Positions 8,553 through 19,851 of a stretch of 42,739 nt of DNA are shown here, one piece after another. This stretch comes from Acidobacteriota bacterium (lineage in GTDB: Bacteria > Acidobacteriota > Vicinamibacteria > Vicinamibacterales > JAKQTR01). Numbering within the stretch: the stretch's first letter is position 1; each line of letters starts with the position of its first letter. Location: contig JAPKZQ010000010.1 of assembly GCA_026393675.1 (NCBI GenBank), positions 1-42,739 of the forward strand, in the 5' to 3' direction. Below the pieces are notes generated by a model. It did no database searches and was not told the DNA's origin. It worked only from the letters and a program-made list of their open reading frames with translations. Made by a program: the position numbers and the translations under genes.

Positions 8553-10394
8553 CTACTGCAACACGATGGTCTTCTGCACCGTGCCGCCCTTGACGCTGTC
8601 GTACTTCACCGAGAGGCTGCCCGTACCCTTGACGAAATACTGGATGGTCTTCGTCGTCCGGCCCGGGTGGCCGCTGCGGACGATAATCCGCTTCAGATCC
8701 TTCTGATCGATCATCTGCGCGACCGCAGGCCGCCATTTCGTCGGTAGCCAGCTCGCGGAGACAACCTCGACGCCTTTCCCATCAACGGTGAGCAGGTCCG
8801 GGCGCACCACGTTGTTGGCCGCCGCCTTCGCCATGATGGTCGGGGCAGTGCCGTCATTCTGAATATCGAGCCACACCTTGAACACGCCATCGGCGAGCTT
8901 CTCCACCTTGGCGTCGCCCATCTTCATCTGGGGCAATTCCTCCGCCTGGTAGAGCGTGAACGCCATGTTGCGGTGGCACAACTCTTCGTTCATGAATCGC
9001 GGTGGCACGCGGCCGAACGTCTTCTTCATGACGCCGCCGATCTCGACCTTGCCGAACTGTGGGTGGTTGAACTCCTTCCAGTCCATTAGTTCGTCGCCAA
9101 ACTCGAGATAGTCGTTGAAGAAATTGTTGGCGACGCGCGGGGCAATCGGGCTGTTGGGATCCTTCTGCTGTTCCTTCAGGTCCGGGCTGGTGAAGTACTG
9201 GCCGTTGTTCCAGAGCTCGTTCGAGAAGGAGAGGATGCCCAGCGTGTCGTTGCTCCAGTCGGTCGTGCCGCCGTGCACGGTGTAGAGACCGCTCCAGATC
9301 ACGAGGTAGCGGTAGAAGGGCAGCATACGCTCACCCATCCGCCCGATGTCGTCATAAGCGCGGACATCCGACGCCGGATACTCACCGGTCTGTTCGGCGC
9401 CGGGGCTGCGCAGAATCATGCCGCCGTTGTTATGGTAGGTCTGCAGCCCGGCCACGTTCGGATGGGCCAGCAGGAAATCGTTCACGGCTTTCGCTTCGGG
9501 CAGCTCGAACGGGTAGTCCATCGCGCCGCTCTGAATGTAGTTCGGCTGCCAGTCGGCCGGGAAATTGCGATTCGGATCGTAGCTGCCGGGGCCATCTTCG
9601 CCCACGCGGCCGTCACCGTCGTGGTCGATGCCTTCCTGGCCGAGCAGGATGTAGTCGCCCTTTTCGCCCGGGCCCACCGGCTCCATCATCCGCGGATCGG
9701 TGGCGCTCTTCCTATGCGTGCCCTCACCAGGAACGTACTTGCGGATCTGCTCGATGACGCCGTTCCCGTTCAGATCCTCGGGGCCGTCCTCATCGAACTG
9801 ATAATCGTTGTCATCGTCGACCGGCCTGTGGCCTGAGCGCGCGTTGCCGCCGGGGCCGTGCATGAAGTAGTCGCGGCCGTCCGGGTTGACGGTCGGCACG
9901 ATGTAGAACACCCGCTCATTGACGAGCTTGGTGATCTTGTCGATCTTGCCGTAGTTCTCCATCAGGTACCAGATCGTGTAGATGCAGATCTCTCCGCCCT
10001 GGATCTCGTTCCCGTGGATGTTGGCCTCGATGTACATCGCCGGCTTCGACGTGTCCGGACCGGTGTCGGGATTGTTGACGATCATGGCGGCCAGATCGCG
10101 TCCGTCGTAGCTTTTGCCGAGCGTGATGTACTTCAGAAACTTTGGATACGCCTTTTCAAGCGTTTGCAGGTCGGCCTGGAGTTCCGCGACGTCATGCCAG
10201 CGGTTGAAGTCGAGCTTCACCTTGTAGGCGCGCTCGGAGGTCGGGTTGTCCGCCCACGTCCTGGGCGCCTGGGTGGCCGCCGTGGGTTTGGGCGTCTGGG
10301 CCGGCTTGGCCTGACCCGAGACGCCTGATGAGGTGCAGACCGCCACTGCTACCAGCAGACCAGCGGTCGCGATGAGCTTCACATGCGTATTCAC
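8553..10394 (-). CDS. Exported M14-family zinc carboxypeptidase, catalytic residues intact
   Basis: 613 residues with a GTG start behind an AGGAGA ribosome site; signal peptide to about residue 28. The M14 domain has all key positions: His127 and Glu130 (ANIHGNE), Arg174 (NPDGRD), Asn275-Arg276 (DPNRNFP), His321 (TYHNNGG) and catalytic Glu393 (FSNELW). Two acidic calcium-type stretches occur between the motifs (DDDNDYQFDEDGPEDLNGNG and DHDGDGRVGEDGP). A beta-sandwich C-terminal region follows. It should trim C-terminal residues from peptides in the periplasm or outside the cell. The gene is 27 bp downstream of a second, divergent M14 paralogue. Confidence 0.93.
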   Translation of the reverse strand: MNTHVKLIATAGLLVAVAVCTSSGVSGQAKPAQTPKPTAATQAPRTWADNPTSERAYKVKLDFNRWHDVAELQADLQTLEKAYPKFLKYITLGKSYDGRDLAAMIVNNPDTGPDTSKPAMYIEANIHGNEIQGGEICIYTIWYLMENYGKIDKITKLVNERVFYIVPTVNPDGRDYFMHGPGGNARSGHRPVDDDNDYQFDEDGPEDLNGNGVIEQIRKYVPGEGTHRKSATDPRMMEPVGPGEKGDYILLGQEGIDHDGDGRVGEDGPGSYDPNRNFPADWQPNYIQSGAMDYPFELPEAKAVNDFLLAHPNVAGLQTYHNNGGMILRSPGAEQTGEYPASDVRAYDDIGRMGERMLPFYRYLVIWSGLYTVHGGTTDWSNDTLGILSFSNELWNNGQYFTSPDLKEQQKDPNSPIAPRVANNFFNDYLEFGDELMDWKEFNHPQFGKVEIGGVMKKTFGRVPPRFMNEELCHRNMAFTLYQAEELPQMKMGDAKVEKLADGVFKVWLDIQNDGTAPTIMAKAAANNVVRPDLLTVDGKGVEVVSASWLPTKWRPAVAQMIDQKDLKRIIVRSGHPGRTTKTIQYFVKGTGSLSVKYDSVKGGTVQKTIVLQ

Positions 10395-10421: not shown

Positions 10422-12635
10422 CTACTGGAGGGTGATGGTGGCGGTGTCGGTACCGCTTTTCTGCGACACGACTTTCAATGTGACGGCTTGTGCCGGCTTG
10501 CCCTTGATGACCCATTCGTAGGACTGGCGGGTGCCCGATCCCGCCAGGGCGTTGAGGTGGTTCGTCTTCTCATTGCCCGTGATGATCGATTCGGGGGGGA
10601 CGCCAAGCTGGACCATGATGGGCTTGACCGATCGGGCCACGACGCCCTGCGCCATCGCCGTCGGCAGATAGCCCGTGTTCTCCACGTCGGCCCGGATACG
10701 GTAGATCCCGCCACCAAGCGCGGTGGCTTCGGCCTTCGCAATCTTCACCTTCGGAAAGATCGACGTGAGATAGAGGACGAACTTCGCGTGGCTCGCCCCA
10801 AGATCCGCGATCTTCGCGACCGGCGGGTTGGTGGTGGCGTACGGCTTGAAGCCTCCGATTTCCACTTCACCAAGCGTCGGGTGTTTGAAGGGCGTCCATT
10901 TGACGAACCCGTCGATCTTCTCGCCGTCCATCCACTGGAGCAGACGCAGGTCGATCCCTTCGGCAAAGTCGGCTTCGCTGCCGCCGCCGCCGGACATCGC
11001 TCCGCCTCCGCCAGCACCACCGCGGCCGCGGCCGGCACCTGCTCCCGCTCCGGCCGTCATGCCAGCCGGCGGAGTGCCCCCGCGTCCCGTGTCACCGCCC
11101 GGCGCTCCCGCGCCAGCCGGCCGACCCGCTCCCGGCAATCCCCATCCCGGCGTCGAAAACGACGGGACGCCGTACTGGTAGTAGCCGTATTCGTAGAAGG
11201 CGCCGGCCGGTGCGCGCGTGTAGCCCGTACTGCGCAGACCGGTGAACTCGCGGTACTTGCTGACGATGGCATTGATGTACTCGGCATCGGCAGGATTCAC
11301 CGTCGTGGCCGCCACCGCGCCGCCGCGCCCGCCGCCTCGACCCGCTGCTGCGGCCTGTTGTCCGCCACGGCCGCCGGGCCCGCCCTCGTCGCCGCCCGCG
11401 GACATGCCGCCGCCGCCACCGCGCCCGCCGCGCCCGAATCCGCCCGAGATCTCCGGGAAGATGCCGACTCGACGCGAATCCGCCACGCTGCGCTCGGCGA
11501 AGTCGAGCAGATTGATCGGGTTGGCCGCCCCGGCGCGCGTGGAGATCAGATTGTCGTTCTCGCCAAAGGTGAGCATCGCCGCAATGTTGCGGTGCTTGAT
11601 TACGTAGTCGAGCATCGCGCGCGTTTCGGATTCGCTCACCATGTACCGGCCCGCGTCGGTCTGAAAGTACGGGTACTGGTGCATGAAGTTACGATTGATG
11701 TCGGTGCCGCCAGGGCCGTCTTCGGCAATGAAGCCGTCACGGTCCTTGTCGGTGCCTTCCCAGTAGATCGCGTACCCGCCGGTTTCCCCCTTGGCCGGAT
11801 CCGCGCGTTTCATCAGCCGCGCATCGTCGGGATGAATCATGTAGGGACCCTTCGGGTCCTTCACGCGCATCACGGTGATGAAACCATCCTTGTTGAGATC
11901 CTCAGGACCGTCCTCGTCGATGCGGCCATCATTGTCAGCGTCGAACTTCGTGCCGTTGGTTCGGCGGCCGGTCTTGACCGGCGCGAACATCAACTCGGCG
12001 CCATCGGGATTGACGCGCGGCACGATGTAGAAGACGTGGTTGTCGAGTCGCTGTTTGACCGCGGCATCACTGGCGTACGACGTGAGCAGGTAGTCGGCCA
12101 GGTAGACGGCCAGCTCGCTGCCGATCACGTGATCGCCTTCGAAGTTGGCCGCGATGAGCAGCCCCGGTCGTTGGTCGACGGGCGTGCCCGACGCGTTGGC
12201 GATCTCGATCGCCCAGATGTCGCGTCCTTCGGCCGACTTGCCAATCGACACGAGCGTGGCCAGATTCGGATGCGCCGTGACCGCCGCCTTCAGCGCCGCC
12301 GAGAGTTCCGCATAGGTGTGGTACTTCGTGGTGTCGGCCGCTCCGGTCGGGGCCACGGCCAGCCATCCGATGATGGCCGCCAGCGCTGCCGCGCGAGCTA
12401 AGTGCCCCGATTCCGAAGTCCGCCGACGGATTCCGGGCGGGGCATCCCGCCTGCCACCCCAACGCGGGTGCCGCGTTGGGGGCCCCGGCCTCGCTGCGTT
12501 GCTCCTTCCTCGAATATTCCCGATATTCTCGGTCGTCGCGCCTTGCGATCCGGGCGCCGCGCTCCGGACTATCGTCGCCGTATTTCGGAACCGGGGCACT
12601 AAGGCTCGACCGACACGTCCTGCTGTGATCCGCAC
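10422..12635 (-). CDS. M14-like protein with exchanged or lost catalytic residues, N-terminus interrupted by a MITE
   Basis: 737 residues from a GTG at 12635, which has AGGAGG 5 bp before it; the open frame extends to 12878 but without a comparable start. It is a paralogue of the next gene. The zinc motif HGNE is replaced by EGDH (residues 166-169), the third zinc His by Gly358 (LTFGEND), the Arg of NPDGR by Ala, and the catalytic Glu by Pro496 (SFSTPGW). NRN is kept (INRNF). Two calcium-like DxDxDG stretches remain. Two Gly-rich inserts lie at about residues 398-441 and 500-553. It is probably non-catalytic or has a changed activity. Residues about 13-79 are encoded by an inserted element (12402-12599). 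Confidence 0.88.
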   Translation of the reverse strand: MRITAGRVGRALVPRFRNTATIVRSAAPGSQGATTENIGNIRGRSNAARPGPPTRHPRWGGRRDAPPGIRRRTSESGHLARAAALAAIIGWLAVAPTGAADTTKYHTYAELSAALKAAVTAHPNLATLVSIGKSAEGRDIWAIEIANASGTPVDQRPGLLIAANFEGDHVIGSELAVYLADYLLTSYASDAAVKQRLDNHVFYIVPRVNPDGAELMFAPVKTGRRTNGTKFDADNDGRIDEDGPEDLNKDGFITVMRVKDPKGPYMIHPDDARLMKRADPAKGETGGYAIYWEGTDKDRDGFIAEDGPGGTDINRNFMHQYPYFQTDAGRYMVSESETRAMLDYVIKHRNIAAMLTFGENDNLISTRAGAANPINLLDFAERSVADSRRVGIFPEISGGFGRGGRGGGGGMSAGGDEGGPGGRGGQQAAAAGRGGGRGGAVAATTVNPADAEYINAIVSKYREFTGLRSTGYTRAPAGAFYEYGYYQYGVPSFSTPGWGLPGAGRPAGAGAPGGDTGRGGTPPAGMTAGAGAGAGRGRGGAGGGGAMSGGGGSEADFAEGIDLRLLQWMDGEKIDGFVKWTPFKHPTLGEVEIGGFKPYATTNPPVAKIADLGASHAKFVLYLTSIFPKVKIAKAEATALGGGIYRIRADVENTGYLPTAMAQGVVARSVKPIMVQLGVPPESIITGNEKTNHLNALAGSGTRQSYEWVIKGKPAQAVTLKVVSQKSGTDTATITLQ
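12402..12599. mobile_element. 198-bp MITE-like element with TIRs and TAA target duplication
   Basis: Terminal inverted repeats GTGCCCCGATTCCGAA (12402-12417) and, on the other strand, GTGCCCCGGTTCCGAA (12599-12584) match at 15 of 16 bases. TAA flanks both ends (12399-12401 and 12600-12602). The interior holds the hairpin ccccaacgcgg-gtg-ccgcgttgggg and a GAATATTCCCGATATTC segment, but no transposase. A 3-bp TAA duplication fits IS5-group (TNA target) mobilisation; that link is inference. Confidence 0.8.
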
Positions 12636-12808
12636 TGCGTCCTCCTGATGTGATTCCTTCAGATCGGGGGCAGAACCCTGCGCCGTCAGAGCATGAGAGA
12701 GCGGGGTGCTGCAGGCAGAACCGGGGCGCGGCAAGCGGGGGGACTTGCCCTGGCACACCAGAAGCCCCAGTGTTCGAGAGAGGCTATCACAGGTGACGCC
12801 GCCGCGGT

Positions 12809-12836
12809 CTGGATTCCGGCGGAAGCCGGGATGACG
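12809..12836. repeat. REP-like palindrome CTGGATTCCGGCGGAAGCCG...
   Basis: The unit ctggattccggcggaagccg followed by ggatgacg is an imperfect palindrome. A second copy is at 30577-30604 in inverse orientation and a partial one near 30521-30538. It lies in the 252-bp gap (12636-12887) between the M14-like gene and the methyltransferase gene, where I see no other feature. Confidence 0.65.
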
Positions 12837-12887
12837 TGGCGAGCGTGTTCTAAGGCGAATCGAGTGCCGTGCGCACACCTGCGGACG

Positions 12888-14042
12888 ATGTTAGGATTGG
12901 CAGAGCCAAACATGACGCCCAAAGACGTGTCGTCTCACATCGCCCAGGATCTCGAGGCGTTTCTTCCGACGGAGATCGGCCGGCTGGAGAACGACAAGAC
13001 CGGTATTCCCAGGATAGCCCGAGATCCCAAACTCACCAGGCTGATCCACGCTAGGTTGCGTGATATTCCCACTCACCACGCTTTGTACTGTCACGATTCG
13101 CGGTTCTTGGACTTCTTGCCCGATGAGAGCGTTCATCTCGTCGTCACGTCACCACCATACTGGACCCTCAAGGAATACCGCGATAGCGAGGGTCAACTCG
13201 GCCACGTCGAAGACTACGAGGAGTTTCTCGTAGAACTAGGCAAGGTCTGGCGACACTGTTTCCGAGTACTCGTGCCTGGTGGGCGTCTCATCGTCGTCGT
13301 TGGCGATGTCTGTCTCTCCCGCAAGAATAATGGCGGACGCCACATGGTCGTCCCCTTGCACGCTTCCATCCAGGAACAGTGTAGGGCGATTGGTTTTGAC
13401 AATCTGGCGCCGATTATCTGGCACAAGATCTCGAATGCAGCTTATGAAGTCGAGGGTGGGGGAGGGTTCCTCGGCAAGCCCTACGAGCCGAATGCCGTCA
13501 TCAAGAACGACATCGAATTCATCTTGATGCAACGCAAGGCTGGTGGATACAGAACGCCATCACTCGCCGCACGGATCCTGAGCGTGATCTCGGCAGAAGA
13601 CCATCGCGTGTGGTTCCAGCAGATCTGGTCCGGACTCACAGGCGCGTCAACCAAGGACCACCCGGCCCCCTATCCAGTCGAGCTCGCAGAACGCCTCATT
13701 CGGATGTTCAGTTTCGTCGGGGATACGGTCCTGGATCCATTTGGAGGCACAGGTTCGACAACGCTGGCGGCATCAAGATTTGGACGAAACAGCGTTTCAG
13801 TTGAGTTGGACACGGAGTATTTCAAGCTCCTGAAGAGCCGACTCGCAGAAGCGCAGAGCAACTTTTTCTCGCGCGCATGCTTCAGTTTTCATCCAGCGAG
13901 TGCCTCTGAGTCCGCCAGAAATGATCCCGGTCAAAGCAGGAAACAGAAAGAGACGGCGAGACCTGCAGGGCCGCGCCCTAGTACCGGCGCGCCGGCAGTG
14001 TCGAGAAGCGTTCGTCGTAGAAGCGGCATATCCGAGCGATGA
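12888..14042 (+). CDS. DNA amino-methyltransferase (N4/N6_Mtase family), probable type II M subunit
   Basis: 384 residues from ATG 12888; ATG 12912 (MTPKDVSSH) is an equally possible start, and neither has a strong ribosome site. Motif IV is LVVTSPPYWTLKEY, and the AdoMet-binding motif I DPFGGTGSTTLAASRFGRNSVSVEL comes after it, so the order is that of beta-class enzymes. SPPY is usual for N4-cytosine methylation rather than N6-adenine. The last 55 residues are low-complexity and lie in the overlap with the convergent endonuclease gene, so they may be a non-conserved extension. It would protect host DNA from the neighbouring nuclease. The local GC content looks lower than in the flanks, suggesting transfer. 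Confidence 0.9.
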   Translation: MLGLAEPNMTPKDVSSHIAQDLEAFLPTEIGRLENDKTGIPRIARDPKLTRLIHARLRDIPTHHALYCHDSRFLDFLPDESVHLVVTSPPYWTLKEYRDSEGQLGHVEDYEEFLVELGKVWRHCFRVLVPGGRLIVVVGDVCLSRKNNGGRHMVVPLHASIQEQCRAIGFDNLAPIIWHKISNAAYEVEGGGGFLGKPYEPNAVIKNDIEFILMQRKAGGYRTPSLAARILSVISAEDHRVWFQQIWSGLTGASTKDHPAPYPVELAERLIRMFSFVGDTVLDPFGGTGSTTLAASRFGRNSVSVELDTEYFKLLKSRLAEAQSNFFSRACFSFHPASASESARNDPGQSRKQKETARPAGPRPSTGAPAVSRSVRRRSGISER

Positions 14043-14760
14043 ATGTGGCGTAGTGATCTTTGTCGCCGGGTTGTGGCGCAGGCGGGTCGGTCCAGAGCTT
14101 GACTGTCGTGACGTTATCGCACTCGATCACGACGGAAGCGTAGGCATCGAATCCGACCTTGCCGACCTCATCTCGGATCGGCAATCCCCTCAGGTGTAAG
14201 AGCATCCCAGCGGCAGCTTCAGGCTGCTTGTGATCAGAGACGAATATTCCCTGACCTACTTGTTGGCGCAATGGAGAAACGAAGGTCCCGGCGATATTGA
14301 CCACGGTGATTCCAGCAGCGATGGCATCGGGGCGACCCTGATGAACGATTTCGTGAGATGAGCTTAGCTCGTCGTACACACGAGGCTTGGATTTGCCGTG
14401 CTCTGTCATCACGGTTTTGGCCTCACACGCAATCAAGACATCCGCGATGGCCCCTTGACGAATCAACGCCCCACCGGCCGGCGGAAGCGGATCTTTGGCG
14501 GTCCCGATCGCAAGATCAAGCGTCTTGGTCTTGCCCGATGACGGCCACGTGAACCTGCAGTTGATCTCGTAGCACAGGATTCCGAGTGCCGCGTGCTTGC
14601 GCAGGGTTGGAGAGCTGTCGAGCAGGTCCTTGAGGATTTCGTCGCAGAGCGCAATTGAATGGGCGTCGCTTCTGGAGTGGTAGCGGTACACGCGACCGGT
14701 CTTTCGGTCTTTGTGTTGGTGGTCGTTCATCCACCGTGTGAAGCGCGCCGGTCCCTGCAC
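13978..14760 (-). CDS. Probable type II restriction endonuclease (PD-(D/E)XK-like)
   Basis: 260 residues from GTG 14760, or 250 from ATG 14730 (MNDHQHKDRKTG). I do not recognise a named enzyme. A candidate nuclease core is seen: Asp82 in KTLDLAIG, then a hydrophobic strand VLIACEAK with Glu113 and Lys115 as the ExK pair, followed by a helix with a basic and acidic stretch (TEHGKSKPRVYDELSSSHEIV). This is the PD-(D/E)XK spacing. It converges with the methyltransferase gene and their ends overlap by 65 bp, a layout often seen in compact restriction-modification units. The nuclease assignment is inference from motif plus neighbour. Confidence 0.65.
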   Translation of the reverse strand: MQGPARFTRWMNDHQHKDRKTGRVYRYHSRSDAHSIALCDEILKDLLDSSPTLRKHAALGILCYEINCRFTWPSSGKTKTLDLAIGTAKDPLPPAGGALIRQGAIADVLIACEAKTVMTEHGKSKPRVYDELSSSHEIVHQGRPDAIAAGITVVNIAGTFVSPLRQQVGQGIFVSDHKQPEAAAGMLLHLRGLPIRDEVGKVGFDAYASVVIECDNVTTVKLWTDPPAPQPGDKDHYATFIARICRFYDERFSTLPARRY

Positions 14761-14787: not shown

Positions 14788-17700
14788 CTACTGTAGACAA
14801 CCCCACGAAGACACCGTTCGCAACGCCCGTCCTGTGTGAGACGACGCACAGGCCGCGACGGCGAAGGGCGGGCCCGCGATCACCAGGCGGCCGCCATCCG
14901 CGCCACCTTCGGGGCCGAGGTCGATCACCCAGTCGGCGTGGCGGATCACATCCAGATTGTGCTCCACGACGACGAGCGAGTGTCCAGCCGCGACGAGACC
15001 ATCGAAAACCTCAAGCAGGCGTCCGACATCATCGGCGTGTAACCCCTTCGTCGGTTCATCGAAGAGATAGAGCGTCGGCTGGTCAGCCCGTCCGATGAGC
15101 GCAGAGGCCAGCACGAGACGCTGACCCTCACCCCCGGAAAGTGTCCGTGTTGGCTGGCCCAGGCGGATGTAGCCGAGGCCGACGTCGTGAAGCGCAGCGA
15201 GCGGTGTCGCGATGGTCCTGCGCCCGGAGAAAAACACGCGGGCCTCATCTATGGTCATGTCGAGGACGTCAGCGATCGAGACGCCGTCTATCCTGCAGGC
15301 GAGCACCTGTGCGCCGTATCGCTTTCCGCTGCACTCGTCGCACGTCATCCAGACGTCTGGCAGAAAGTCCATGCTGATGCGTACCTGGCCGAGGCCTTCG
15401 CACGCCTCACAACGTCCGCCCTTGCCCGACGTGGAGAAGTCCGCTTTGCGAAGTCCATGGGTCCTGGCTTCGTCGGTGTCCGCGAACACCGCGCGGATCG
15501 GATCGAACACTCCGAGATGGGTCGCCGGCGTACTCCACGGCGACGACACGGCGTTCGCGCTTTCAATATCGATCATTCGCGCGACGGGGGAGTGGATGAC
15601 GAGGGCCCCGCAGTTCACGGGAGCGGGCGTGTCGTCCGGGCCCGCCGAGATCGCGCGGCCGACCGACGGCGCCAGCACATCGAATACCAGCGACGACTTG
15701 CCGCTGCCCGATACGCCGGTGATCGCGACAAGACCGCCGGTCGGGATCTCGATGTCGAGGTCGCGCAGGTTATGCGCACGGGCTCCGCGAATCGTGATGC
15801 CGGGCTGCAGCGCTCGGGACGGCGAGGTCGAGGCGCGCGTCGCCGCCGCCGTTCGCCGGAGGTGCGCGCCCGTTCGGGATGCCGGGTGCCGTGTGATGTC
15901 GGCCGGCGTGCCCAGCGCGACGATGGTCCCGCCGTCCTTGCCCGCGGCAGGCCCAATCTCGATGACGTGATCGGCTGCCGCGATGACATCGAGATCGTGT
16001 TCGACAACGATGACCGTGTTGCCCGCATCCCTGAGCGCGCGCAGCAGCGCGAGCAGCCGGTTGGTGTCTCTGGGGTGAAGGCCCACCGTGGGCTCATCGA
16101 GGACATAGGTGATGCCGGTCAGTCCGGACCGCAACTCGGCGGCGAGCCGGACACGCTGGGCTTCGCCACCCGAGAGCGTCGAGGCCGGGCGATTGAGTGC
16201 AAGATAGCCCAGGCCCGCGTCCCGCAGGCTCTCGAGACGCTGCAGCACGTCCTCGCGTAGACCGGCAGTGAGTTGTCGGGTCCGGCTGTCGAGTTCTACC
16301 GCGCCGGCATCGATGGCGTGGAAGAAAGCGAGCGTGTCATCCACGGTCTTGATCAGCAATTCGTGGATGTTCACGCCGGCAAAGCGCACCGCGAGGGCTT
16401 CCGGCTTCAACCGGCCTCCGTGGCACGCGGTGCACGGCGCTGGCATCATGAGCGGCTCGATCGCCTCGCCACGCCGATCGCCGTGTTTACGCTCGTATTC
16501 CTGGCGCACCAGCTCAAGCAGACCTGGCCAGGTGGTGCGGAAGTGATGCGAGCCTTCCCGCGCGCCACGCTTGTATTTCCACTCGACATCGAATTCGCGG
16601 TCGCCGGTGCCGCCAAGCGCCACCTCGCGGCCCTGGGACTCGAGTGCGCCCCAGGGCGCGGAGTAGTCGATGCCAAGCGCGGCACCAACCGAGGCCAGGA
16701 TGGCCATGTGCTGACCGTGGGGATCGCCATAGAAGCGCCCCGGCTTGTGGCCGCTCATGGCGCCGCCGGCAAGGCTCCGCGTCTCGTCCGTGATGAGCCT
16801 GGCGGGGTCGGTTGCGATACGCTGGCCGAGGCCGTGACATGCGGGACAGGCGCCTGCTTCGGAGTTGGGCGAGAACATGGCGGATGTCAGCGTCTGCGTG
16901 CCGGTGTAACCGCAGGATCCGCATGTTCCGCCGTTCAACCGGGTATGGCACCCCGGACAGTGCCGCACTCCGGCCCGCGAATAGATCAACCGGTAGTGAT
17001 CGTGAATCTCGGTCAGTGTGCCGACGGTCGAACGTGGGTTCCGGGACGGCGCTTGCTGGCTGATGGCAATAGTCGGCGTCAGGCCGGACACGCTGTCGAA
17101 GTCCGCATCGTTCGCGCGCTGCACGAACCGGCGCGCGTACGTGGAGAAACTGTCAGCGAAGCGCTGCTGGCCCTCGGCAAAGATCGTGTCGAAGGCCAGC
17201 GACGACTTGCCGCTGCCCGACACGCCTGTGATGACGGTGATCCGGTTGGCGGGGATCTCGACGTCGAGATGACGCAGGTTGTGCGTGCAGACGTTGGCGA
17301 AGCGGATGGGCTCGGGCGACCCGCGACGCTCTCCATCATTGCTTCGACCGCGCTCGGGCTCAGCGGTCAGACCCGGGGTCCCGCCGCGAAGCGCCTCCCG
17401 GAGCGCCTCACCCGTAAACGACCCGGGCGTCCCGGCAATCTGCTCCGGCGTGCCCGTCGCCACCACCCGCCCGCCGTGCGAGCCGCTCTCCGGCCCGAGA
17501 TCGACCACGTGATCCGCCACCTTGATCACATCGAGATGGTGCTCGATCGCAATCACCGTGTTGCCTCTGCTGACCAGGCCATCGATAGCCTTCAGCAGCA
17601 GCGCCACGTCGGCTGCATGCAACCCGGTGGTCGGCTCATCGAGTACGTACAGTGTGCGTCCCGTGCCGGGGCGCGAAAGCTCCGAGGCAAGTTTCACGCG

Positions 17701-19851
17701 CTGGGCCTCGCCGCCGGACAGTTGCGTGGCCGGGTGGCCAATCGGCAAGTACCCGAGGCCGAGCATCCGCATCGTGTCGAGCGCACGCGCGATCAGCGGT
17801 TGGTCCGCAAAGAATCCGCACGCCTCCGCGACCGGCATCTCGAGGACGTCGTGGATGTTCCTGCCCAGGTACCTGATGTCGAGCGTCTCATCGTTGAACC
17901 GCCGTCCGCCGCAACGCTCGCACGTGACGGCCACCGACCCGAGAAACTGCATCCCGACCTCGGTCACGCCCGCGCCCTCGCAGGTGTCGCAGCGGCCCCC
18001 CTTCACGTTGAACGAAAACCGCCCCTTCTCGAAGCCGCGTTCGACGGCCGCCGGCTGCGAGGCGAACAGGTCGCGCACGCGATCGAACAGGCCCGTGTAG
18101 GTGGCTGGGTTCGATCGCGGCGTGCGCCCGATCGGCGCCTGATCGATGTCGATGATCTTGTCGATGGGTTCGGGCGTCTCGACGGTGGCGTCGCCGCCAC
18201 GTTGTCCGGACAGCAGTCGGCGCGTTTCATCGATGAGCGTAGACTTGCCCGCTCCCGAGACGCCGGTGACGACGTTGAACGCGCCGAGCAGGAAGATGGC
18301 GGAGACGTGGTCGAGGTTGTGCTTCGACAGCCCGCGCACGGTCAGCTCGCCCCGGCCCGTGCGCCTGCGCTCCGGTATCGCAATACGCTCATGTCCCGTG
18401 AGGAAGGCGCGCGTGCGGCTGTCCGGCAGGCGGGCGCCGCCCATGCCGTCGCTTGCCAGGAAGCGATCGAGCGGGCCGCTGAAGAGGATCTCGCCTCCCT
18501 CCGCACCGGCTCCAGGGCCGACATCAACGATCCAATCGGCCTGCCGCACCACCTGGTCGTCGTGTTCGACGACGAGCACCGTATTGCCTTCGTCACGAAT
18601 GGTCCGAAGCAGGTCGAGCACCCGCCCGGTGTCGCGGTGGTGGAGGCCCACCGACGGCTCGTCAAGCACATAGAGCACGCCGCGCAGGCCGATGCCCGCG
18701 GCCCTGGCGAGCCGAATCCGGTGCGCCTCGCCGCTCGAGAGCGTGGTCGATTCGCGATCAATTGTGAGGTAACCGAGGCCCAGGCGCTGGAGTACCGCGC
18801 ATCGGTCCGCTACCTGTTTCTTGATCGCGTCGAATTGGGGCCTGGCCCCAAGTTCCATGCCACCGTCCTGCTCGAACCACGTACGAACCCCGTCGATGGA
18901 GAGCGCGGCGGCTCCCGCGATGGTCATGCCGCGAACCGTCACGGCGAGCGCCTCGGGGCGGAGTCGCGTGCCGCCGCAGGCCCGGCAGGGGAGCGACCGC
19001 ACGAAACGCAGAATGTTGTCATTGCGCTTCTGCCTGAGGATCTGTTCCATCACGGGCAGGATGCCCTTGTAGATCCCTTCCTCGCGAGGCTTCGCGGTGA
19101 TCCCCGTCCACTTCATGCGCGAGGCGAGCGGGTGCTTGCCGTACGGGATGCGGATCCGATCCGAGCCGTTCAGGATGATGTCGCGTTGCCCGGGTGTGAG
19201 CGCGTTCCACGGCAGATCGACGGTGAACCCGTGCGCGCGGCACACCTGGTCGAGGACATCAATGGTAACCTGCGAGTAGATCAAGTAGCCGGTCGGCGTG
19301 GTGATCCGCAGCGCGCCCCCACGAACGGTCTTTGCGGGATCGGCGACGAGCAGGTCCGGGTCGAGCCGATCTTCGACGCCAAGTCCCTTGCACACGGGGC
19401 AGGCGCCGTACGGGGAGTTGAACGAGAACAACTGCCGCTCAATCTTCGGGACACCGGCCCCCAGCGGAGATGTGCCGAGCCTCGCCCACAGAAGTCTCAG
19501 CAGGTCGTACAGTTCGGTCATCGTGCCGACCGTGGAGCGCGGGTTGCGTACCACAGTGGACTGATCGACCGCCACGGCGGGCGAGAGCCCGTCGATGTGT
19601 CGCACCGAGGGCCGTGACAGCTTGCCCAGAAACTGCCGGGCGTAGGACGAGAAGGTCTCGAGGTAGCGCCTCCGACCCTCGGCGCAGATCGTGTCGAAGG
19701 CGAGCGAGGACTTGCCGGAGCCGGACACGCCGGTCACCACCGCGAGGCAATGCCGCGGGATGTCGACGTCGACCTGCTTCAGGTTGTGCTCGCTGGCACC
19801 CCTGACGGCGATCACCGGCGCCGCCGACGCTTCGCGCGTATCGTTGGCCAC
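14788..19851 (-). CDS. Tandem-fused UvrA-like ABC ATPase (four nucleotide-binding domains)
   Basis: A 1687-residue protein, about twice a normal UvrA (~940), with a GTG start. Half one spans about 1-845 and half two about 846-1687. Walker A motifs: VTGVSGSGKSS (39-49), VTGVSGAGKST (528-538), ITGVSGSGKSS (874-884) and ITGVSGSGKSS near the start of the fourth domain. Signatures are LSSGEAHR, LSGGEAQR, LSGGEAQR and LSGGEGQR. Walker B motifs end in DEP each time. Zinc modules CDTCEG...CERCGG (621-647) and CEACEG...CDECSG are present. The UvrB-binding region that normally follows the first zinc site is missing in both halves. It thus resembles UvrA2/drug-tolerance UvrAs in a single-chain dimer. 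It starts 3 bp after the phosphatase stop. Confidence 0.92.
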   Translation of the reverse strand: MANDTREASAAPVIAVRGASEHNLKQVDVDIPRHCLAVVTGVSGSGKSSLAFDTICAEGRRRYLETFSSYARQFLGKLSRPSVRHIDGLSPAVAVDQSTVVRNPRSTVGTMTELYDLLRLLWARLGTSPLGAGVPKIERQLFSFNSPYGACPVCKGLGVEDRLDPDLLVADPAKTVRGGALRITTPTGYLIYSQVTIDVLDQVCRAHGFTVDLPWNALTPGQRDIILNGSDRIRIPYGKHPLASRMKWTGITAKPREEGIYKGILPVMEQILRQKRNDNILRFVRSLPCRACGGTRLRPEALAVTVRGMTIAGAAALSIDGVRTWFEQDGGMELGARPQFDAIKKQVADRCAVLQRLGLGYLTIDRESTTLSSGEAHRIRLARAAGIGLRGVLYVLDEPSVGLHHRDTGRVLDLLRTIRDEGNTVLVVEHDDQVVRQADWIVDVGPGAGAEGGEILFSGPLDRFLASDGMGGARLPDSRTRAFLTGHERIAIPERRRTGRGELTVRGLSKHNLDHVSAIFLLGAFNVVTGVSGAGKSTLIDETRRLLSGQRGGDATVETPEPIDKIIDIDQAPIGRTPRSNPATYTGLFDRVRDLFASQPAAVERGFEKGRFSFNVKGGRCDTCEGAGVTEVGMQFLGSVAVTCERCGGRRFNDETLDIRYLGRNIHDVLEMPVAEACGFFADQPLIARALDTMRMLGLGYLPIGHPATQLSGGEAQRVKLASELSRPGTGRTLYVLDEPTTGLHAADVALLLKAIDGLVSRGNTVIAIEHHLDVIKVADHVVDLGPESGSHGGRVVATGTPEQIAGTPGSFTGEALREALRGGTPGLTAEPERGRSNDGERRGSPEPIRFANVCTHNLRHLDVEIPANRITVITGVSGSGKSSLAFDTIFAEGQQRFADSFSTYARRFVQRANDADFDSVSGLTPTIAISQQAPSRNPRSTVGTLTEIHDHYRLIYSRAGVRHCPGCHTRLNGGTCGSCGYTGTQTLTSAMFSPNSEAGACPACHGLGQRIATDPARLITDETRSLAGGAMSGHKPGRFYGDPHGQHMAILASVGAALGIDYSAPWGALESQGREVALGGTGDREFDVEWKYKRGAREGSHHFRTTWPGLLELVRQEYERKHGDRRGEAIEPLMMPAPCTACHGGRLKPEALAVRFAGVNIHELLIKTVDDTLAFFHAIDAGAVELDSRTRQLTAGLREDVLQRLESLRDAGLGYLALNRPASTLSGGEAQRVRLAAELRSGLTGITYVLDEPTVGLHPRDTNRLLALLRALRDAGNTVIVVEHDLDVIAAADHVIEIGPAAGKDGGTIVALGTPADITRHPASRTGAHLRRTAAATRASTSPSRALQPGITIRGARAHNLRDLDIEIPTGGLVAITGVSGSGKSSLVFDVLAPSVGRAISAGPDDTPAPVNCGALVIHSPVARMIDIESANAVSSPWSTPATHLGVFDPIRAVFADTDEARTHGLRKADFSTSGKGGRCEACEGLGQVRISMDFLPDVWMTCDECSGKRYGAQVLACRIDGVSIADVLDMTIDEARVFFSGRRTIATPLAALHDVGLGYIRLGQPTRTLSGGEGQRLVLASALIGRADQPTLYLFDEPTKGLHADDVGRLLEVFDGLVAAGHSLVVVEHNLDVIRHADWVIDLGPEGGADGGRLVIAGPPFAVAACASSHTGRALRTVSSWGCLQ

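Follow-up and report, generated by a model that had tools for sequence, protein, structure and literature searches.

The window (the whole stretch of 42,739 nucleotides analysed here) carries on its minus strand a gene for an M14 zinc-carboxypeptidase-like protein, into which a short hairpin element has inserted between codons 12 and 13. The features of the locus are given below in window coordinates; G001 is the nearest relative, a genome of the same genus.

10422..12635, minus strand: M14 zinc-carboxypeptidase-like gene with the insertion, GTG start at 12635 (Pfam Peptidase_M14, E 4.8e-35; G001 orthologue 92% identical in amino acids)
12351..12386, minus strand: hydrophobic core of the signal peptide, ALAAIIGWLAVA (residues 84-95 now, 17-28 without the element; hydropathy scan)
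12398..12402, no strand: target-site duplication CTAAG, left copy (from the sequence; flanks of copy L006 identical)
12399..12599, minus strand: 67 element-derived codons, residues 13-79, VPRFRN...SESGHL (from the translation; 13 Arg, 0 Lys)
12403..12598, no strand: non-autonomous hairpin element (MITE), 196 bp, ends TGCCCCG.../...CGGGGCA (inverted repeats, genome copies, absent from the orthologous G001 site)
12474..12571, plus strand: structured core common to the Acidobacteriota family (matched by covariance model R1 with E 2.7e-18; compensatory changes in the core stems)
12599..12603, no strand: target-site duplication CTAAG, right copy (from the sequence)
12633..12635, minus strand: original GTG start codon (conserved in G001)
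12641..12646, minus strand: Shine-Dalgarno sequence AGGAGG, 5 nt upstream of the GTG (conserved in G001)

A second M14 gene, a related paralogue, adjoins at about 8784-10211. Divergent from the M14 gene is an N6/N4 DNA methylase gene (12693-14760), followed by a convergent 260-residue open reading frame with no Pfam or NCBIfam match; the two may be a restriction-modification pair. The minus strand at 14788-19851 encodes a 1687-residue protein with two tandem UvrA units (four ABC domains). In the M14-like protein (11900-12401, minus strand), NFEGDHVIGSE is conserved at the position of the HxxE zinc motif of carboxypeptidase T, and its metal site may possibly be non-canonical or inactive.

The arms of the element, 12398-12428 and 12573-12603, are 31 nt long and 84% complementary, and the arm sequence belonging to this element is TGCCCCGATTCCGAA (other arm sequences exist in the family). 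Its predicted RNA fold has an energy of -119.7 kcal/mol (z -7.1). Five of its six reading frames are open, which only 2.8% of dinucleotide shuffles reach. The ends can be read in two ways with the same net length of 201 bp, either as 198 bp plus a TAA duplication or as a 196-bp TGC...GCA element plus a 5-bp CTAAG duplication. A comparison of all copies favours a 5-bp CTAAG here and a 4-bp CTAG/YTAR in relatives, and TAA or TA was dropped as the target duplication. CTAAG also flanks copy L006 and CTTAG flanks L115 and L303, while relatives have direct repeats of CTAG, CTAA, TTAG or TTGA; the direct CTAA, TTAG, TTGA and CTTAG pairs exclude that the flanking repeats merely extend the palindrome. 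A preliminary description of this DNA had proposed an inverted-repeat MITE of 198 bp with one TAA copy. The MITE and the net length of 201 bp stand, but the boundaries do not, being best read as 196 bp and CTAAG. The element is short with terminal inverted repeats, is present in several copies, contains no transposase, is flanked by a target duplication and has an empty site in a relative. Its class is ordinary; what is unusual is the outcome of its insertion and the architecture of its family. Neither the elements nor the window matched any Rfam 15 covariance model, and searches of plasmid and viral contigs for the element found nothing.

The genome of the window (G000) contains six copies, the one in the window and five others of essentially full length, as well as solo ends and half copies. 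The five others, by contig and position, are:

C4:204503, 94% identity
C41:15265, 92% identity
C45:15517, 88% identity
C5:23644, about 89% identity
C42:107369, a 157-bp internal-deletion form

The pattern of the terminal repeats matched the genome 17 times in forward and nine times in reverse orientation, the control with the reversed pattern giving 0 and 1, so the further copies anticipated by the preliminary description are present. About 120 bp to the left of copy L006 (C42, left of 107369) form a dispersed repeat of their own, of which G001 has many copies. A diverged element (L007, C45:54450-54800) fills the gap between carA and carB, the carA stop abutting one end and the carB ATG the other, and has a GC-rich repeat nested within it. 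Stops or starts lie directly next to several solo ends and to the copies L004 and L007, but targeting of stop codons is unsupported as a rule, since abutment on stops follows from the TAA or TAG contained in the target.

We found no transposase with the element's terminal repeats among the rve, DDE_Tnp_1 and Y1/RAYT genes of this genome, and no rve gene (IS481/IS3 type) at all. Its two DDE_Tnp_1 genes, considered as autonomous partners, have other terminal repeats or none; its two Y1/RAYT genes were set aside as the mover because the elements have target-site duplications. A paired search for terminal repeats in relatives, looking for a longer element, gave only spacings of about 160-200 bp.

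The empty site is found in G001. The DNA of the M14 orthologue aligns across the upstream region, Shine-Dalgarno sequence, GTG and signal peptide without the insert, and the net gain in the window is exactly 201 bp, or 67 codons. The junction codon is ACG in G001 and TTA here; all three bases of the target codon differ, and the target duplication is therefore not directly readable from this empty site. M14 orthologues in other genera start directly after the Shine-Dalgarno sequence; their N-terminus resembles a signal peptide and carries no extension. Two other copies in the window's genome, L003 and L005, are likewise absent at the matching G001 loci. The window copy has private substitutions at four of 196 positions, whereas the DNA around the gene diverges by approximately 12% from G001. 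We conclude that the copy is young and that it probably inserted after the species split from G001.

Deleting the 201 bp in silico gives the N-terminus MRITAGRVGRALARAAALAAIIGWLAVAPTGAADT. This joined signal peptide, starting at the GTG with AGGAGG, had been predicted from the window, and it exists in G001 with the same Shine-Dalgarno sequence and start. As the minus-strand frame is open through the element, the insertion adds 67 codons, encoding VPRFRNTATIVRSAAPGSQGATTENIGNIRGRSNAARPGPPTRHPRWGGRRDAPPGIRRRTSESGHL, and the preliminary description was right to place a stop-free, in-frame addition between the n-region and the h-region. The charge ahead of the h-region is +4 without the element and +14 with it, and the start of the h-region moves from residue 17 to residue 84, behind an arginine-rich extension. 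If translation still begins at the original GTG, as we infer, the protein would have an Arg-rich n-region of 80 residues. Judged from the sequence, export of the M14 protein is probably impaired or changed. Reduced expression is also plausible given the very stable RNA fold.

A further suggestion had been that the element created a new start. In frame, ATG, GTG or TTG occurs at three places only, each time as GTG: codon 1, codon 13 and, within the h-region, codon 94. Codon 13 (12597-12599) lies in the terminal repeat at the right end of the element, and initiation there, or at a sequence internal to the element, would give the protein a new N-terminus. We regard this as highly improbable: the AGGAGG still lies 5 nt from the native GTG, both being conserved in relatives, some 70 residues would remain ahead of the h-region with initiation at codon 13, and no sigma-70-like promoter was found inside the element. 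There is no usable start codon between the element and the h-region, so an internal start restores no normal signal peptide, and a rescue of normal export by this route is unlikely.

A more serious alternative is that the insertion silently prevents the M14 protein from being exported or expressed. The gene would then be a nascent pseudogene, its frame open for no other reason than the youth of the insertion, and its loss tolerable through the neighbouring M14 paralogue. An h-region pushed to residue 84 behind a charge of +14, a very stable hairpin within the coding start, the youth of the insertion and the adjoining second M14 gene are all compatible with such inactivation, and a family copy has indeed frameshifted a hydrolase gene in another genome (see below). 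However, the M14 body of 659 residues is fully intact and 92% identical to G001, and an in-frame copy persists in ctaA with all conserved histidines, where loss should be costly. Inactivation of the M14 gene is a real possibility, at somewhat less than an even chance.

The copy on C4 (204503-204700, or 1501-1698 of locus L002) is in frame within ctaA (COX15-CtaA) and is translated in a different element frame from the M14 copy. The 67 inserted residues lie between ...SGGADVSL and NVANRGR...; four CtaA homologues are contiguous at this site and do not have them. The insert-bearing CtaA retains the conserved His and other invariant residues. A half-alignment to heme A synthase 6a2j suggests that the insert sits between the two four-helix halves. 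An AlphaFold model, weak (5 sequences, pLDDT 55) and used for helix order only, shows eight long helices and places the insert after the fourth and before the fifth. Together, the half-alignment and this model support a position in the TM4-TM5 linker.

For about 105 copies we joined the flanks, asked whether they form a single continuous gene, and then carried out family searches. Calls of intragenic copies based on GC3 and on joined flanks that stay open were mostly antisense or two-gene artefacts, and we retained only those with family matches and a readable gene context on the flanks. Most copies are intergenic. Besides M14, where the insertion is near the gene start, and ctaA, family members of the relative G020 are in frame in an FkbM methyltransferase gene (G020:C101, L317:631-1935) and, with a CTAA duplication, in a radical-SAM gene (G020:C37, L238:2-1516); the domains of these two genes flank the insert on both sides or abut it. 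One copy with a net length of 161 bp frameshifts an alpha/beta-hydrolase-like gene (L257, G053:C77). Four in-frame copies and one frameshift are too few for any claim of selection. The commonest net length in the family is 158 + 4 = 162 bp, a multiple of three, as is the 196 + 5 = 201 bp of the window. With such lengths and open frames, in-frame survival needs no special targeting. The preliminary description had overlooked this large family and its in-frame entries into other genes.

The evidence from the window, G001 and the other genes leaves us confident that a mobile, transposase-less hairpin of MITE type inserted recently and in frame between the start codon and the signal-peptide hydrophobic core of an exported M14-family protein, and that its family is in frame elsewhere too. 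Its movement would be due to a DDE transposase acting in trans and leaving target duplications of YTAR type (CTAG, CTAA) or of CTNAG. Copies in frame would persist through a net length that is often a multiple of three and frames that are mostly free of stops, and some insertions at tolerant positions would be read through as a flexible extra segment.

The covariance model matches 31 of 60 genomes of the order, with at least 69 copies in some genome, and 19 out of a phylum-wide sample of 199; the family is widespread in acidobacteria and apparently undescribed. Elements in relatives are 157-203 bp long. The core contains GCGTTGCTC...TCGCGCCTTG and has a mean column identity of 81%, with compensatory changes in nine of the 20 pairs of its stems. 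The outer arms fall into about ten self-complementary families (grouping gave 13, a few of which are register shifts): over 24 nt, the arms of 57 well-delimited copies agree with their own partner at 21.6 positions and with partners from other families at 7.7. Among the direct repeats flanking these 57 copies are 44 CTAG and two CTAA, and TTAG, TTGA and CTTAG also occur. The family flanks are thus CTAG, YTAR or CTNAG, and the window belongs to the 5-bp CTNAG subgroup. A conserved core with variable ends is the reverse of the usual MITE pattern. About ten interchangeable sets of terminal repeats would imply that several transposases are probably involved.

Such a core could function as a structured cargo, of RNA or DNA, that passes from one set of terminal repeats to another, the locations in genes being incidental. 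Its identity, its compensatory changes and the self-complementarity of each arm family could be explained in this way. Against it are the lack of an Rfam match, the mostly intergenic copies, with no consistent neighbour gene noticed in an unsystematic look, and the fact that a hairpin constraint on DNA could itself explain the covariation. We consider a cargo function unlikely, and continue to regard the elements as mobile hairpins, some of which would be read through at tolerant positions in genes.

Rickettsia palindromic elements (RPE) are palindromic, multi-copy and non-autonomous sequences of about 150 bp that are found in frame in unrelated protein-coding genes (PMC10969869, PMC3733652). 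The Acidobacteriota elements resemble them in being in frame in several unrelated genes (M14, ctaA, FkbM and radical SAM). They differ in coming from another phylum, in being mostly intergenic with clear CTAG/CTNAG duplications kept, in combining one shared core with some ten arm families unrelated to each other, and in that two genes, M14 and ctaA, read the element in different frames. They work like RPE; the likeness is one of behaviour, the host phylum is different, and we do not assign them to RPE. Bacterial MITEs such as QMITE of Coxiella burnetii are also short and transposase-less, with terminal inverted repeats, target duplications and occasional in-frame fusions (PMC5896051, PMC10969869), but here the core is conserved and the terminal arms vary, and no autonomous partner was found among the families searched in the window's genome. 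A 4-bp YTAR target duplication is the signature of IS5 (PMC10359306). Many family copies are likewise flanked by CTAG, CTAA or TTAG, but the elements have no transposase, and YTAR holds for the CTAG-flanked subgroups and not for the 5-bp CTNAG subgroup of the window. REP/RAYT palindromes are hairpin repeats that occur in Acidobacteria and elsewhere (PMC3733652). REPs are 20-40 bp long with GTAG/CGTC tags and no target duplication, whereas the elements here are 157-203 bp with direct-repeat flanks, and identity with REPs is excluded by size, tags or flanks, and target duplications.

In-frame palindromic insertions have hitherto been treated mainly as a peculiarity of Rickettsia. The GC-rich genomes of Acidobacteriota show the same in-frame outcome with clean empty sites, which makes the question of whether such insertions are tolerated, neutral or useful testable in ordinary genes such as ctaA and a peptidase signal peptide. 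We suggest, tentatively and at a little under an even chance, that an undescribed Acidobacteriota hairpin family, with a conserved covarying core and about ten interchangeable sets of terminal repeats, repeatedly gives rise, through its size and stop-poor frames, to in-frame protein insertions outside Rickettsiales. Its architecture of conserved core and variable arms could be used to find out what a MITE requires for movement by different transposases.
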